From Crassaminicella indica (GTDB lineage: Bacteria; Bacillota; Clostridia; Peptostreptococcales; Thermotaleaceae), in NCBI RefSeq assembly GCF_019203185.1, contig NZ_CP078093.1, positions 744,001 through 808,000 of the forward strand: 64,000 nucleotides of DNA, read 5' to 3'. Made by a program: the position numbers and the translations under genes. Shown here one piece after another: positions 3,162-58,583 of this stretch. The notes beneath the pieces were generated by a model that had not been told where the DNA came from, searched no databases, and worked only from the letters and a program-made list of their open reading frames with translations. How positions within the stretch are numbered: the first letter of the stretch is position 1; each line of letters starts with the position of its first letter.

Positions 3162-3181
3162 CTTATAACTATCAAAGAATT

Positions 3182-3270
3182 ACTTTTCATTGTGAAGTTT
3201 AGTTTTTTCAAAAGTTATCTGGAATGAACTGTTCTTTATATTTCATTTTGAAGTTGGATCCCTATATATA
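3182..3270. repeat. dispersed intergenic repeat, copy A (right arm)
   Basis: This 89-base stretch matches the right half of the complete repeat at 22101-22319: both share TTCAAAAGTTATCTGGAATG and then CTTTATATTTC. It continues into TTTTGAAGTTGGATCCCTAT, an outer end also found at 58547-58583. It lies between the xpaC-like start and the glycine riboswitch. Confidence 0.75.
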
Positions 3271-3394
3271 TCTATTATTGAATTATTAGAATTTTGCAAC
3301 TTTTCTATAATGTATTGTAATAATTTCCATTCAATGTTATCATCTTAGCAAGCAGTTTTAATGAATTTTTATCAAGTGAATACTTTCGGATGAA

Positions 3395-3556
3395 AATAAT
3401 GGGAGAGAGATCTATTTGATCCACCGAAGAAGTAACTCTTTCAGGTAAATAGGACCATTATTGGACGAGCCTCTGGAGAGACTCTATATGGGCACCGAAG
3501 GAGCAAGCCTATTTTTGTAGGTGAAACTCTCAGGTAAAAGGACAGAGTAATTTGTT
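3395..3556 (+). ncRNA. tandem glycine riboswitch
   Basis: Two successive glycine aptamers are visible. The first has GGGAGAGA (3401), CACCGAAGAAG and TCTTTCAGGTAAATAGGAC; the second has CTGGAGAGACTC (3472), GCACCGAAGGAGCAA and CTCTCAGGTAAAAGGACAG. A terminator hairpin and then a glycine/alanine symporter gene follow. In this family glycine binding switches downstream transcription; whether this is an ON or OFF switch depends on the platform at 3557-3597, where the terminator is obvious and the alternative pairing is not. Confidence 0.93.
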
Positions 3557-8507: not shown

Positions 8508-8663
8508 TTTGTTATCCCCCTTTACTTTCTTATCTTAGCTCGTTGCAGAATACTACAACTCGCATAAATACTACATTTAAATCTATTGAAATGGCTAAGT
8601 TTCCCCCATTTTGGGTATATATACAGTAGATAATTGTTAATAACTCAAAGAAAGGAGAAACCT

Positions 8664-10097
8664 ATGCCAATTTCAACTAAACAGTTACACTTTCATGATA
8701 TTTCATCTGATTTTAATGATTTTTTTGATCAAAATCAAAGTAATTTACTTTCTTTACTAAATGAATTTATTGATATCTCTGAGTTCATTCCTTTTTCTTT
8801 TTCTCAAAAGTATTATTCTAATCTAGGTACTAATAGGAATTTTTCTCTTGAATCAATGCTCTTGGCTTTTATTCTAAAAAATATTTTATCTATCCCTACT
8901 ATTGACCTTCTCATTTCTTTACTACATATTTCTCTTGAAATGCGTAGCTTTTGTGGTTTTCTTAGGGTTCCTAACAAATCTCAATTTTCAAGGTTTAAAT
9001 CAAACTTCTCTGATGAGTTAAGGGATATGTTCCATCATCTTGTTGATGTTACTGAAGAATTAGCTAAGGAGGTTAATCCTTTTCTTTCTTCTATCTTGAT
9101 TACTGATACTACTGGCTTTGAACTCTATGTGACTGAAAACAATCCTAAGTTCTATCAGTCCCAACTTCGCAAAGCGAAGGCTTATGCTAAAACTCTTAAG
9201 AAAGAAGATCCTAATTCCACTTTTGATATAGAAAAATATGCTCAGAGTAAGATGCCTAAATATGCTTCTTCTAATAATGATGCTAAGCTCTGCTACCTTA
9301 ATGGTCATTTTGGCTATTTTCAAAAATCAGTTATTTCAACTAATGGTTTCGGTCTTATTAGAGATGTTAATTTCTATGATTCTGATAATAATCTATCCTT
9401 TGACCTAACACCACAGGAAACCAAGGATTTATATGATGCTAAATCTTTAATTCCTACTCTTGAAACTTTCTTTAGCATTCATCCCGATTTTGAATATAAA
9501 TACTTTCTTGGTGATGCTGGTCTTGATGCTGATGATAACTATGCTTATCTACATGGAAAAAACATTATGCCTATTATTAGCTTGAATCCTAGAAACTCTT
9601 CTGATTTACCTCAACCTGATTTTAATGAAGTTGGTGTTCCTCTTTGCCCTTTAGACCCTTCTTTGCCTATGGTTTATGATGGTATTTCTAGAGAAAAGGG
9701 ACGTGCTGATAGAATTAAGTATATCTGCCCTAAGGTAAAGAAAACCATTGTGAAGGGCAAAACTACTTATATTCTTAATTGCGATAATCCTTGCACTAAG
9801 TCAAAGTGTGGCCGAATTAAACAGCTTACTGTTCACCATAATTTTAGATTCAACACTTCTTTTCCTCGTAACAGTTTGAAATGGATATTGCTTTTCAAAC
9901 AAAGAACTATTATTGAAAGATCTATCTCACAAATTAAGAATTTTATTCAAATTAAAGCTTCTAAGGTTAGAAGTACCGTATCTTTGAAATCCGATATTTT
10001 CTTAGCCTGTATATCTCAATTAGTAGCTTTTATACTTTTGTTTAAATCTCAAGAAAAACATAATAATCCTCTGGCAATAAAATCTTTAATAGCATAA
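8664..10097 (+). CDS. DDE transposase, IS4/IS5-superfamily (IS1182-like) type
   Basis: 477 aa full-length transposase. Segments consistent with the DDE triad are ILITDTTGFE (about 149-158), the region around YFLGDAGLDADDNY with the second Asp, and RTIIERSISQIKNF with the catalytic Glu. The C-terminal half has a Cys-rich insertion (CDNPCTKSKCGR). ATG at 8664 has AAAGGAGAAACC upstream; an in-frame extension to 8634 has no ribosome site. It stands alone between unrelated genes. Codon and base usage are more T-rich (TCT, CTT, GCT) than the neighbours, in keeping with a mobile origin. The frame is intact, so it may be active. Confidence 0.88.
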   Translation: MPISTKQLHFHDISSDFNDFFDQNQSNLLSLLNEFIDISEFIPFSFSQKYYSNLGTNRNFSLESMLLAFILKNILSIPTIDLLISLLHISLEMRSFCGFLRVPNKSQFSRFKSNFSDELRDMFHHLVDVTEELAKEVNPFLSSILITDTTGFELYVTENNPKFYQSQLRKAKAYAKTLKKEDPNSTFDIEKYAQSKMPKYASSNNDAKLCYLNGHFGYFQKSVISTNGFGLIRDVNFYDSDNNLSFDLTPQETKDLYDAKSLIPTLETFFSIHPDFEYKYFLGDAGLDADDNYAYLHGKNIMPIISLNPRNSSDLPQPDFNEVGVPLCPLDPSLPMVYDGISREKGRADRIKYICPKVKKTIVKGKTTYILNCDNPCTKSKCGRIKQLTVHHNFRFNTSFPRNSLKWILLFKQRTIIERSISQIKNFIQIKASKVRSTVSLKSDIFLACISQLVAFILLFKSQEKHNNPLAIKSLIA

Positions 10098-12731: not shown

Positions 12732-12791
12732 CATGAAAAATATGTTAGTAGCCTTCATTGTTTGAACGAAGTAATCTTTGAAGTTGTTTAC
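12732..12791. repeat. dispersed intergenic repeat, copy F (central part)
   Basis: CATGAAAAATATGTTAGTAG then CCTTCATTGTTTGAACGAAG matches the central part of the complete repeat (22189-22245). The rest of the 12443-12831 gap holds no ORF that I can support, only AT-rich upstream sequence of kbl. Confidence 0.75.
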
Positions 12792-12831
12792 CTATATATT
12801 ATAATTCTACATTTTATTATTTAATTTAATA

Positions 12832-12875: not shown

Positions 12876-12992
12876 TAGTATCTTCGGGGCAGGGTGAAAT
12901 TCCCGACCGGCGGTATAGTCCGCGAGCCACAAATGTGGTTGACTTGGTGAAATTCCAAGACCGACAGTAAAGTCTGGATGGTAGAAGATAAA
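12876..12992 (+). ncRNA. FMN riboswitch (RFN element)
   Basis: The conserved RFN core is present: ATCTTCGGGGCAGGGTGAAA, CCCGACCGGCGGTATAGTCC, GCGAGCC, CTTGGTGAAATTCCAAGACC, GACAGTAAAGTCTGGATGG and a closing GTAGAAGAT that pairs with the start. It precedes the rib operon; binding of FMN is expected to favour the terminator at 13051. Confidence 0.97.
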
Positions 12993-13050
12993 AGGTATAG
13001 TCATATTATGATATGTCTAGTTTTTGGCGTATTATAACATAGAATTCAAC

Positions 13051-19871: not shown

Positions 19872-20189
19872 ATGTCTAGATGTGATGATTATATGAAGGA
19901 TTATGATAAGGATTACGGCAATGATTATGAATGTCCAATGTATCCTCAGATGCCTATGATGGGTGGTATGCCTTGTCCTCAAATGCCTATGATGGGCGGA
20001 ATGCCTTATCCTCAAATGCCCATGATGGGTGGTATGCCTTATCCTCAGATGCCTATGTGCCCTCCTATGATGGGAGAAGAAGACATGAAGGATTTATGCT
20101 GTGCAGAACACATGAATGAATATATGGCTTATATGTGCAAGGCTGAAGCTTGCAAAATACGCGCTATGCAATGTATGTATAAAAAATAA
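19872..20189 (+). CDS. Met/Pro-rich tandem-repeat protein
   Basis: 105 aa. An acidic, Tyr/Asp-rich head with several Cys is followed by three and a half copies of a 12-residue unit MPYPQMPMMGG (about residues 28-70), and then a tail with CC, CKAEACK and CMYKK. There are about 25 methionines and 8 cysteines. No signal peptide or membrane segment. The ribosome site is ACAAGGGGGAAATACA. It is divergent from copA, about 210 bases away. Met- and Cys-rich repeats can bind Cu(I), and the position suggests copper handling. A spore-coat protein of low complexity is the main alternative. Confidence 0.75.
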   Translation: MSRCDDYMKDYDKDYGNDYECPMYPQMPMMGGMPCPQMPMMGGMPYPQMPMMGGMPYPQMPMCPPMMGEEDMKDLCCAEHMNEYMAYMCKAEACKIRAMQCMYKK

Positions 20190-20857: not shown

Positions 20858-20885
20858 AAATAAGCCAGCATTTTTACTGGCTTAA
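20858..20885 (-). terminator. terminator of the htrA-like gene
   Basis: Stem TAAGCCAG / CTGGCTTA with loop TAAAAATG. Read leftward it ends in a run of T residues. Confidence 0.85.
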
Positions 20886-22078
20886 TAATTTTTTGGTATT
20901 CTTTCTAATTTTATTTTTAAAGTCTTTTCTTCATCATTTCTCATAATTTTAATATTTGCAGTATCGCCTGGTCTATATTTATATAACTCTTTTACCAATT
21001 GAGTCATGCTATTTATTTTCTTGTCCTCTATACCAATGATTACATCACCTGTCCTTAAACCTCCCTTTGCTGCTGGAGAACCTTTATATACCCTTGCTAT
21101 ATATATTCCTTCATCCGTAATCAAATCTATTCCTGTACTTCTTTCAAATATATCTACATTTATCCCCTGAATACCCATATATACCTTTCTGAATTCTCCT
21201 TTTTCTATAAACTGATCTACAATAGGTTTTGCTATATTGATTGGAATAGCAAAGCCTAATCCTTCTCCAGATTTGATTTTAGCTGTATTGATTCCAATAA
21301 CTTCTCCTTTGCTGTTGAGAAGTGGTCCTCCACTATTTCCTGGATTAATAGAAGCATCTGTTTGGATTAAATTTTCAATTCTTTCATTTTCATTTATTTC
21401 TACACTTCTATTTAGTCCACTAATAATTCCTGATGTAACTGTTTTTTCAAACTCCATTCCTAAAGGATTACCTATAGCAATAGCAATCTCTCCAACCTGC
21501 AAATCATCAGAGTTTCCTAAATCTGCTGGGACTACCTTGACACCATCTACCTTTATCACTGCTAAATCTAATGCAGCATCGCTCCAAAGTATTTTTGCAT
21601 CTTTTTTCTTTCCATTATCAAATAATACCTTTAACTCTTCAACATTTCCATTATGCACCACATGTGCATTTGTAAGTATATAGCCTCTTTTATCTACTAT
21701 AACACCTGTTCCTAATCCTTTTGCTGTTCGTGGTCCAAAGAAAAAATCTCTTTCAATACTTGTTGTTGTAATCCCTACAACAGATGGCATAGCCTTTTTG
21801 GCTACAGCAGATACTAAAAACTCTGTACTCTTAGGATTTACATGAATTACTTGCTTTATATCTGGACCAAAATAATTTTGTGGATAAGGAATCAACTTTC
21901 CAAATACATATACAGGCATTACATAGCTTGAAATGACTCCCCCTATAAGTGCTGAAATCAAAATAACCACCACAAGGCTTAAATTTCTTCGTTTTCTAGG
22001 CTTTTTTTCCACTTTGTCTTCTACATAAGTAATTACAGGTACATCAATAATTTCTTGCTCTCTTTGTCTATTTTCCAT
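20882..22078 (-). CDS. htrA: HtrA/DegP-like membrane-anchored serine protease with PDZ domain
   Basis: 398 aa. One N-terminal membrane anchor (SLVVVILISALIGGVISSYVM) follows a short basic cytoplasmic tail. The trypsin-like domain has the catalytic triad visible as TNAHVV (His), LDLAVIKV (Asp) and NPGNSGGPLL (Ser). A C-terminal PDZ domain contains GVRTGDVI-like GLRTGDVIIGIEDKKI. It degrades misfolded extracytoplasmic proteins. The start at 22078 has GAGGTGGTGATTTT; the frame is open further upstream without a ribosome site. It lies downstream of a response regulator/kinase pair, as in CssRS-HtrA-type envelope stress control, but a 220-base palindromic repeat separates them. Confidence 0.92.
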   Translation of the reverse strand: MENRQREQEIIDVPVITYVEDKVEKKPRKRRNLSLVVVILISALIGGVISSYVMPVYVFGKLIPYPQNYFGPDIKQVIHVNPKSTEFLVSAVAKKAMPSVVGITTTSIERDFFFGPRTAKGLGTGVIVDKRGYILTNAHVVHNGNVEELKVLFDNGKKKDAKILWSDAALDLAVIKVDGVKVVPADLGNSDDLQVGEIAIAIGNPLGMEFEKTVTSGIISGLNRSVEINENERIENLIQTDASINPGNSGGPLLNSKGEVIGINTAKIKSGEGLGFAIPINIAKPIVDQFIEKGEFRKVYMGIQGINVDIFERSTGIDLITDEGIYIARVYKGSPAAKGGLRTGDVIIGIEDKKINSMTQLVKELYKYRPGDTANIKIMRNDEEKTLKIKLERIPKNY

Positions 22079-22100
22079 AAAATCACCACCTCGTATAATA

Positions 22101-22319
22101 TAGATAAACAACATCAACATTAAAAAGAAATATATAAAGATAAGTGAATGACTTCGATAACTTTTGTAAAAAAACTTACTGAAATTTCATGAAAAATACG
22201 TTAAGAACCTTCATTGTTTGAACGAAGTGAGTTTTGAAGGTTTAGTATTTTTCATGGAATGAAGTTTAGTTTTTTCAAAAGTTATCTGGAATGAACTGTT
22301 CTTTATATTTCGTTTTGAT
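22101..22319. repeat. complete dispersed palindromic repeat, copy B (MITE-like)
   Basis: About 219 bases forming one long imperfect palindrome. Outer left GATAACTTTTGTAAAAAAACT (22156-22175) pairs with right AGTTTTTTCAAAAGTTATC (22269-22285). Inner CATGAAAAATAC pairs with GTATTTTTCATG, and AACCTTCA with TGAAGGTT. Outermost GAAATATATAAAG pairs imperfectly with CTTTATATTTC. Fragments occur at 3182, 12732, 25937, 32722, 57129, 58021 and 58547. It contains no ORF and fills most of the 304-base gap between the kinase and htrA. Confidence 0.85.
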
Positions 22320-25897: not shown

Positions 25898-25938
25898 ATA
25901 AACCAGGTGGGAATACCTACCTGGTTTGTTTTTTTATA
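25898..25938 (+). terminator. terminator after the Spo0E-like gene
   Basis: Stem AAACCAGGTGGG / CCTACCTGGTTT with a short loop and long T-run. Confidence 0.82.
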
Positions 25939-26005
25939 AAAGTTATCAAAGTCATTCACTTATATTTATATATTTCTTTTTTACTGTTAATGTTGTTTAT
26001 CTATA
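25937..26005. repeat. dispersed intergenic repeat, copy D (left arm, inverted)
   Basis: Reverse complement of the left arm of the complete repeat (22101-22168): shares AAAAGTTATC, AAGTCATTCACTTAT, TATATATTTCTTTT and AATG...GTTGTTTATCTA. It lies between the Spo0E terminator and the chemoreceptor promoter. Confidence 0.8.
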
Positions 26006-32520: not shown

Positions 32521-32721
32521 ATTATTCCTCCTTTTTAAATAGTTCTTTTAGTTTTATAATTCTGACAATTCTGCGTATAGATACAATTCATGATTATTTT
32601 TTATAATTGCATAAATATAATTTGTCATATTAGGAAAATGTTATCATATGTCTATACGCATCATTCATGATAACATATTTTCGTTGATAAATGTTTTAAA
32701 TTTTTGTAATATGTAAATATG

Positions 32722-32755
32722 AGTGAATGACTTTGATAACTTTTGTAAAAAAATA
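32722..32755. repeat. dispersed intergenic repeat, copy E (fragment)
   Basis: AGTGAATGACTTTGATAACT and TTTGTAAAAAAATAC match 22143-22176 of the complete repeat with one or two changes. It lies in the 250-base gap upstream of abgT; the rest of the gap is AT-rich promoter sequence. Confidence 0.75.
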
Positions 32756-34065: not shown

Positions 34066-34090
34066 GTGTTTGAAAAGTTAATCACTTCAA

Positions 34091-34300
34091 CATGGTGTTG
34101 TTAACAATAGATTAACAGCTTAAAAGGGAAGCTCGGTGAAAATCCGACACGGTCCCGCCACTGTAACGAGGAATGCAGCTATATATATACCACTGTTTTC
34201 ATTTAATGGGAATGGGAAGGTGATAGCTGTGTAATGAATCGAAGTCAGGAGACCTGCCATGCTTGATGATACCGTTATCACTTACGCGGATAAGGAGGTG
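34091..34300 (+). ncRNA. cobalamin riboswitch 1
   Basis: Core features are present: AAAAGGGAAGCTCGGTGAAA, ATCCGACACGGTCCCGCCAC, TGTAA, GAAGTCAGGAGACCTGCCAT (B12 box). Together with the terminator at 34363 it fills the 525-base gap between YibE/F and the AspT-like gene. Cobalamin binding is expected to turn the downstream genes off. Confidence 0.95.
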
Positions 34301-54405: not shown

Positions 54406-54479
54406 AACATACTCCATATAAAATAATATGTAAGCTTTTACTTTGTTTCCTGGCCTTCCCACCGAAGGTAGTAACATAC

Positions 54480-54650
54480 ACAATAGGCAGGTCTCCTGAC
54501 TCATGAATCTTCCTACTCCCTCTCCCCTTCCCGTTTTCACAGTGGGTTGCTTGAGGTTTCGTCATCATTTACAGTAGCGGGGGCTGCGCCGGATTTTCAC
54601 CGAACTTCCCTATTAAACCTTAAAAAAGGTACCTAATGCAATCACCATAT
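54480..54650 (-). ncRNA. cobalamin riboswitch 2
   Basis: Leftward: GGGAAGTTCGGTGAAAATCC, GGCGCAGCCCCCGCTACTGT, AA, and the B12 box GAGTCAGGAGACCTGCC (54499-54483). Terminator and two small ORFs follow. btuF lies beyond these and behind a bidirectional terminator. Confidence 0.95.
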
Positions 54651-54672
54651 TTAATTTCATCTCATTATACCA

Positions 54673-57113: not shown

Positions 57114-57128
57114 AAAAATCCCTCCTCA

Positions 57129-57224
57129 TTAACATTAAAAAAGAAATCTATAAAGATAAGTGAATGACTTCGATAACTTTTTCAAAAGTTATCTGGAATA
57201 AACTATCTTTTATATTTCGTTTAA
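57129..57224. repeat. dispersed intergenic repeat, copy C (internal deletion, compact hairpin)
   Basis: Left arm (matches 22111-22163) and right arm (matches 22273-22314) are joined directly, giving CGATAACTTTTTCAAAAGTT with almost no loop. The central about 110 bases of the complete copy are missing. The result is one about 95-base hairpin upstream of the binding-protein gene. Confidence 0.82.
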
Positions 57225-57294
57225 ACAACAAAATAACTATCCTCAGTATAACACAATTTTTAATTGGAAGCTTAAAACCATTTTTAATTTTTTA

Positions 57295-58008: not shown

Positions 58009-58068
58009 CATTTTCGATAAGATAAACAACTTCTTAATGTTGATGTTGTTTATCTATAATCGAAAATG
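58009..58068. repeat. dispersed repeat end within a 60-base palindrome, copy G
   Basis: CATTTTCGAT / ATCGAAAATG and GATAAACAAC / GTTGTTTATC are nested inverted arms. AATGTTGATGTTGTTTATCT is the outer end of the complete repeat (22102-22121, inverted). It lies between DUF3793 and flavodoxin, where the hairpin may partly terminate. Confidence 0.7.
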
Positions 58069-58519: not shown

Positions 58520-58548
58520 CAACATACCCCCTAATTTTAGGGGGTTTA
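58520..58548 (+). terminator. terminator after flavodoxin
   Basis: Stem ACCCCCTAA / TTAGGGGGT followed by TTATATATTT. Confidence 0.7.
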
Positions 58549-58583
58549 TATATTTCGTTTTGAAGTTAGATCCCTATATATAA
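58547..58583. repeat. dispersed intergenic repeat, copy H (right outer end)
   Basis: TATATTTCGTTTTGAAGTTA then GATCCCTATATATA matches the right outer end of copy A (3239-3268) almost base for base. Confidence 0.72.

Follow-up and report, generated by a model that had tools for sequence, protein, structure and literature searches.

The palindromic repeat at 22101-22318 of the window (the whole 64,000-nucleotide stretch analysed, positions 744001-808000 of the single 2,756,133-bp contig of a 2.76-Mb genome) is very probably a MITE that is mobilised by an IS630 transposase and carries an old structured RNA, or RNA-like, core that includes TwoAYGGAY (RF01731). In the mechanism that we propose, the transposase of the resident IS630 element (Tc1/mariner-type) would recognise the ends TATAG[A/G]TAAACAA, cut out or copy the repeat and insert it at TA between genes. 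The cargo would be a hairpin of ~175 nt combining short helices, tandem sheared G.A modules and a conserved tip, and its RNA family would be an old one, spread in Clostridia by at least two transposition systems, with TwoAYGGAY as its branched-tip form.

Copies, ends and empty sites

The initial annotation described a long imperfect palindrome at 22101-22319 with partial copies elsewhere in the window and offered two readings, a non-autonomous element or a family of structured RNAs. The palindrome was confirmed by its fold as single-stranded DNA (-37.3 kcal/mol compared to -17.7 +/- 3.0 for shuffles, z -6.6) and the partial copies by self-BLAST (E 5e-26 to 5e-7). Both halves of the proposal gained support, one from the evidence for mobility and the other from covariation and covariance-model matches. 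Genome-wide, matches lie far above chance: a 23-base core piece has 56 exact copies, compared to 0 in the reversed control, and terminus matches number 89+91 versus 8+6 in the control. We located 60 distinct full-length copies with their flanks, none of which (0/60) lies inside a called ORF; in addition, many copies have kept both ends and lost the middle. The repeat is a 233-base palindrome with the termini TATAGRTAAACAAC...GTTGTTTAYCTATA, and the outer TATAs of intact copies delimit 237 bp. A common boundary is evident from the shared ends TATAG[A/G]TAAACAA; in an alignment of 30 copies, the two ends read TATAG[G/A]TAAACAAC and GTTGTTTA[C/T]CTATA, and GGATCCCTATA is a frequent end variant. 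Among the located full copies there was no orientation bias relative to neighbouring genes, no strand bias with respect to replication direction (18/11 vs 19/12, p=1, with the contig start taken as origin) and no enrichment between convergent genes (4/56 copies).

The left boundary of the window copy is exact. The element starts at 22101 (TAGATAAAC), directly after the left target dinucleotide TA at 22099-22100, and runs on the forward strand to 22318 in full length except for about 14 nt of the right terminus, which are missing. Its left terminal inverted repeat TAGATAAACAACATCAAC (22101-22118, forward strand) follows from the alignment of 30 copies, and the same end is present on the resident IS630. 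The partial copies on the forward strand comprise a right half with the right terminus variant GAAGTTGGATCCCTATA (3181-3266, E 5e-26), a tip joined to the right terminus GAAGTTGTTTACCTATA (12732-12797, E 5e-13), an inner left arm only (32708-32753, E 2e-13) and a copy with deleted centre, in which query positions 12-71 are joined to 171-215 (57127-57225, E 6e-19). A left half with the left terminus is inverted (25928-26005, reverse strand, E 5e-26), and at 58009-58068 two termini stand almost back to back as a minimal palindrome (E 5e-7 for the match at 58030). The right end at 58547-58583 (forward strand, GTTAGATCCCTATA variant), also listed initially, is weak when taken alone, although the match at 58549 shares 34 nt with the end of the 3181 copy at 94% identity. 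The claim that all copies are intergenic held insofar as the window copies lie between the longer ORFs, but the copy at 22101 overlaps the ORF at 20882-22120 by ~20 bases; the true start codon of this ORF may lie further inside. An FMN riboswitch (12876-12993) follows the 12732 copy at a distance of about 80 bases. Other riboswitches in the window are a tandem glycine riboswitch (3390-3547) and two cobalamin riboswitches (34076-34275 and 54469-54651), and 33-base tandem repeats rich in Met and Pro codons occur at 19941-20057 inside the ORF at 19872-20189.

At the 22101 locus, three congeneric genomes have the orthologous intergenic region without the element, 80-86% identical on both sides. 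The joined flanks of further copies likewise gave continuous matches, that is, unoccupied sites, in the same three congeners. At the cleanest of these, the congeners read ATCATTAG-TA-ATATGTAC, while in the home genome a TA stands on either side of the element; the duplication is therefore TA, as was deduced from this other copy for the window copy as well. The empty target is ATCATTAGTAATATG in all three congeners at this one clean site. The repeat is thus short, non-coding, multi-copy and intergenic, with shared terminal inverted repeats and empty-site insertion. It is a MITE, a small non-autonomous transposon, and its mobility is well supported.

A candidate source of the transposase

A search of the home chromosome for DDE_3 transposases yielded an IS630-family element of 1,270 bp in three copies (L177, L179 and L180; G000:C1 592.8k, 2459793-2461062 and 2632k). 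Its ends TATAGATAAACAAATTT / TATAGATAAACCATTTT match the repeat ends over 11-13 nt only, and the ends are all that the two have in common; the repeat interior is not derived from the IS. Both ORFs of the element hit NCBIfam NF033545, with the second exceeding the cutoff of the model, and they overlap at an A-run, which suggests programmed frameshifting. The IS630 end surfaced at 3 mismatches to the repeat terminus. At up to 2 mismatches, no autonomous element was found, just solo or deleted copies. Judged by its ends, the resident IS630 is the likely source of the transposase, and its protein would act on the ends of the repeat.

This element, located elsewhere in the chromosome, is the one with matching terminal repeats, and not the protein encoded at 8634-10097 in the window (DUF772/DDE_Tnp_1 domains). 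The latter transposase, which had been annotated at 8664 as unrelated to the repeat, was rejected as the mover, as the flanks of its gene contain no matching inverted repeats; it is single-copy, the only other hit in the genome being 27% identical.

In a second genus (G009), no IS630 (PF13358) was found despite at least 13 copies with similar ends. Nor was it found in G056, G064 and G097, whose ends are of the TATAGATAA type; in these four it may have been lost or have diverged. In most other carriers IS630 was not found either, and where it was, its ends do not match. Searches of plasmids, phages and viral contigs for the repeat gave no match, and no protein recurred next to it across genera beyond synteny or conserved gene neighbourhoods.

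The structured core and its link to TwoAYGGAY

The core is a strand-specific hairpin of about 175 nt, in which tandem G.A modules lie between short helices and a conserved tip closes the structure. In the window copy it spans 22134-22306 on the forward strand according to the covariance models R1 and R2. The helix GATAACTTTTG / CAAAAGTTATC (22156-22166 and 22276-22286, forward strand) is composed of pairs that covary in alignment A2. The hairpin tip GAACGAAGTGAG (22220-22231, forward strand) reads GAGCGNAGCGAG in distant relatives and is a branched double-GGA tip in the variant of the TwoAYGGAY type. By inspection, the recurring tandem G.A modules are GTGAATGAC/GGAATGAAC, ACTGA/GAAGT and TTTGAAC..GTGAG, and in distant genera GC replaces AT in the pairs between them. 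The structure is strand-specific, as the element reaches 175-185 bits but only about 26-35 bits when its reverse strand is scored.

Compensatory changes, the lack of which would have spoken against a structured family according to the initial annotation, are present. With a hand-drawn structure on a structure-blind MAFFT alignment of 20 sequences, 33/61 pairs changed on both sides (shuffled mean 8.6, slid controls 9-13). Among 81 hits, in an alignment fitted to the structure, both-side changes were seen in 60/61 pairs, and 90.7% of the cells were paired compared to 39-46% when slid. By DNA search, the core was also recovered from further genera of the family, and Geosporobacter subterraneus (Thermotaleaceae, Peptostreptococcales) was the only carrier in the scan of named genomes. 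The covariance model from the 20-sequence alignment gave full-length, multi-copy matches in 47/395 genomes of the order, and the model built from the 81 matches did so in 58/391 sampled genomes of the class, with copy numbers that are lower bounds and E-values that are rough. We propose that the RNA form of the core is under selection; the RNA would then benefit either the element or its host, perhaps by offering a binding site to an RNA-binding protein.

The distribution of variable sites reverses the initial claim of better conservation in the arms than in the loop: variation is highest in the terminal inverted repeats and lowest in the core, to which the loop belongs. In the home genome, a first comparison of core and ends (p=4.5e-6) had been taken as a sign of selection on the core. 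This claim was dropped once the ends were split, since the hypervariability is confined to the terminal repeats; variable sites amount to 17/159 in the core and 7/38 in the sub-terminal part, a difference that is not significant (p=0.20). In G009, the contrast is strong, with an identity of 0.90 for the core, 0.55-0.59 for the ends and 34% for unrelated flanks, although gene conversion between copies might also account for the similarity of the cores.

In other genomes, the core is flanked by the ends TATAGATAACCAA or TATAGATAAGCAA, which are IS630-like, or by CTTGTGCAATT. In genus g103 (L196-L215), the sequence of the long outer stems, which have an A-tract on the 5' side and a T-tract on the 3' side, varies from copy to copy while complementarity is kept. 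G009 also contains a 193-nt variant with a branched, double-GGA tip (L165-L175), which is flanked on both sides by a duplicated Rho-independent terminator; in 5/10 copies the flanks contain exact repeats of 20-28 nt, whereas cross-pair controls reach 12 nt at most. These differing ends suggest that more than one transposition system carried the core through Clostridia, and to judge from the sequences it is older than its vehicle. We additionally observed a sub-family with an extra arm of ~90 nt between two core helices (L160-L163, G009) and, in G088 (L216-L220), five near-identical copies whose similarity extends, on one of the two sides, over ~90 extra bases that include a terminator-like hairpin.

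The branched-tip variant leads to Rfam. One copy (L248) matched RF01731 with 45.0 bits (cutoff 43), and two others reached 41-42 bits. Window copies and simple-tip relatives had no match to RF01731 and are therefore relatives rather than members; their tip GAACGAAGTGAG is without the two AYGGAY loops, and two GGA hairpins occur in the branched variant only. Conversely, model R1, which contains simple-tip copies only, aligns the branched copies over all 176 positions, and a basal stem with tandem GA is common to both forms. TwoAYGGAY, an RNA without known function, originates from the screen in PMC2864571; its stem has tandem GAs, and CsrA binding has been proposed (PMC4333381). We found no literature that calls it mobile or multi-copy. 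By these alignments, TwoAYGGAY is apparently the branched-tip variant of the core family of the repeat.

Alternative readings and known systems

The simplest alternative is an ordinary IS630 MITE, in which the palindrome is a by-product of two inverted arms and the structure, inherited from active source copies, is functionless. High identity among copies, many internal deletions and the lack of orientation bias fit a recent burst, and the home genome shows no significant difference in variation between the core and the sub-terminal part. However, when families are compared, both partners of pairs have changed all along the hairpin, the two strands score very differently (26-35 vs 175-185 bits), and elements with unrelated ends have the same core. 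Covariation in a structure-blind, class-wide alignment, which such a by-product would not produce, was largely recovered by the MAFFT count, and we consider this explanation unlikely. The outer stems, A-rich on the 5' side and T-rich on the 3' side especially in genus g103, together with the variant inserted at terminators, would also suit bidirectional transcription terminators or insulators that were spread by transposition. This is quite improbable, as copies are not enriched between convergent genes (4/56) and termination has no need of conserved G.A modules and tip.

The strand specificity of the hairpin could further indicate movement as single-stranded DNA that is recognised as a folded hairpin, in the style of IS200/IS605 or integron attC, and the tip resembles the d(GCGNAGC) triloop family. 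The TA duplication, a DDE transposase with matching ends and the absence of replication-strand bias argue so clearly against such a mover that we give it hardly any weight. By analogy with TwoAYGGAY, the repeat may also have been a host regulatory RNA, for example a CsrA-binding sponge, that was amplified for dosage and gained transposon ends later. The branched-tip variant reaching RF01731, as well as the CsrA binding proposed and the stem tandem GAs noted for TwoAYGGAY (PMC4333381), are in line with this origin; nevertheless, it is doubtful, because the copies here have the simple GAACGAAGTGAG tip instead of two GGA hairpins, and because polymorphic insertion sites and random orientation indicate that mobility came first. 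We therefore favour the IS630-mobilised MITE with an old RNA core. More tentative, and in our judgement a little short of probable, is its extension to an ancient RNA family, with TwoAYGGAY as a tip variant, that travels as cargo of several unrelated transposition systems (IS630/TA and another that duplicates terminator hairpins) and whose fold is selected because it promotes spread of the element or acts in trans to the benefit of the host.

The repeat provides an example of a bacterial MITE that can be paired with a likely transposase, a TA duplication and empty sites. Its interior appears to be a class-wide structured RNA family, of which Rfam covers just one orphan variant, and TwoAYGGAY would thereby be recast as part of a mobile family. 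This offers testable functions, namely an RNA binding partner and an effect on transposition, and the covariance models can annotate many repeats in Clostridia that are now unlabelled.

Among known systems, the repeat is similar to RUP/IS630-Spn1 in that it is short, AT-rich and intergenic, targets TA and has terminal repeats resembling those of a resident IS630. RUP is 107 bp long and nearly confined to pneumococcus and S. mitis, whereas the repeat described here has a class-wide core; to our knowledge, no deep structural conservation is known for RUP. RUP has about 100 copies with terminal repeats like those of IS630-Spn1, and our assignment to IS630 follows the same logic (PMC2229807, PMC3049150), to which the TA insertion read from empty sites is added. 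Correia/NEMIS and ERIC are MITEs with terminal TA, terminal inverted repeats and long stem-loop transcripts (PMC2229807); by description, they share the MITE type, the TA ends and the inverted repeats with our element, while the hosts differ. YPAL/RU-2 of Yersinia duplicates 3-26 bp of its target at sites of dyad symmetry (PMC2229807), a likeness, again by description, that concerns the G009 variant only with its duplicated terminators of 20-28 nt. TwoAYGGAY is matched by the branched variants in full length at or near the cutoff and shares the tandem GAs of the stem, in contrast to the window copies with their simple tip and no Rfam match. Overall, the sequence comparisons suggest a known kind of mobile element, comparable to pneumococcal RUP/IS630-Spn1, with a structured-RNA core that is widespread and mostly unannotated.
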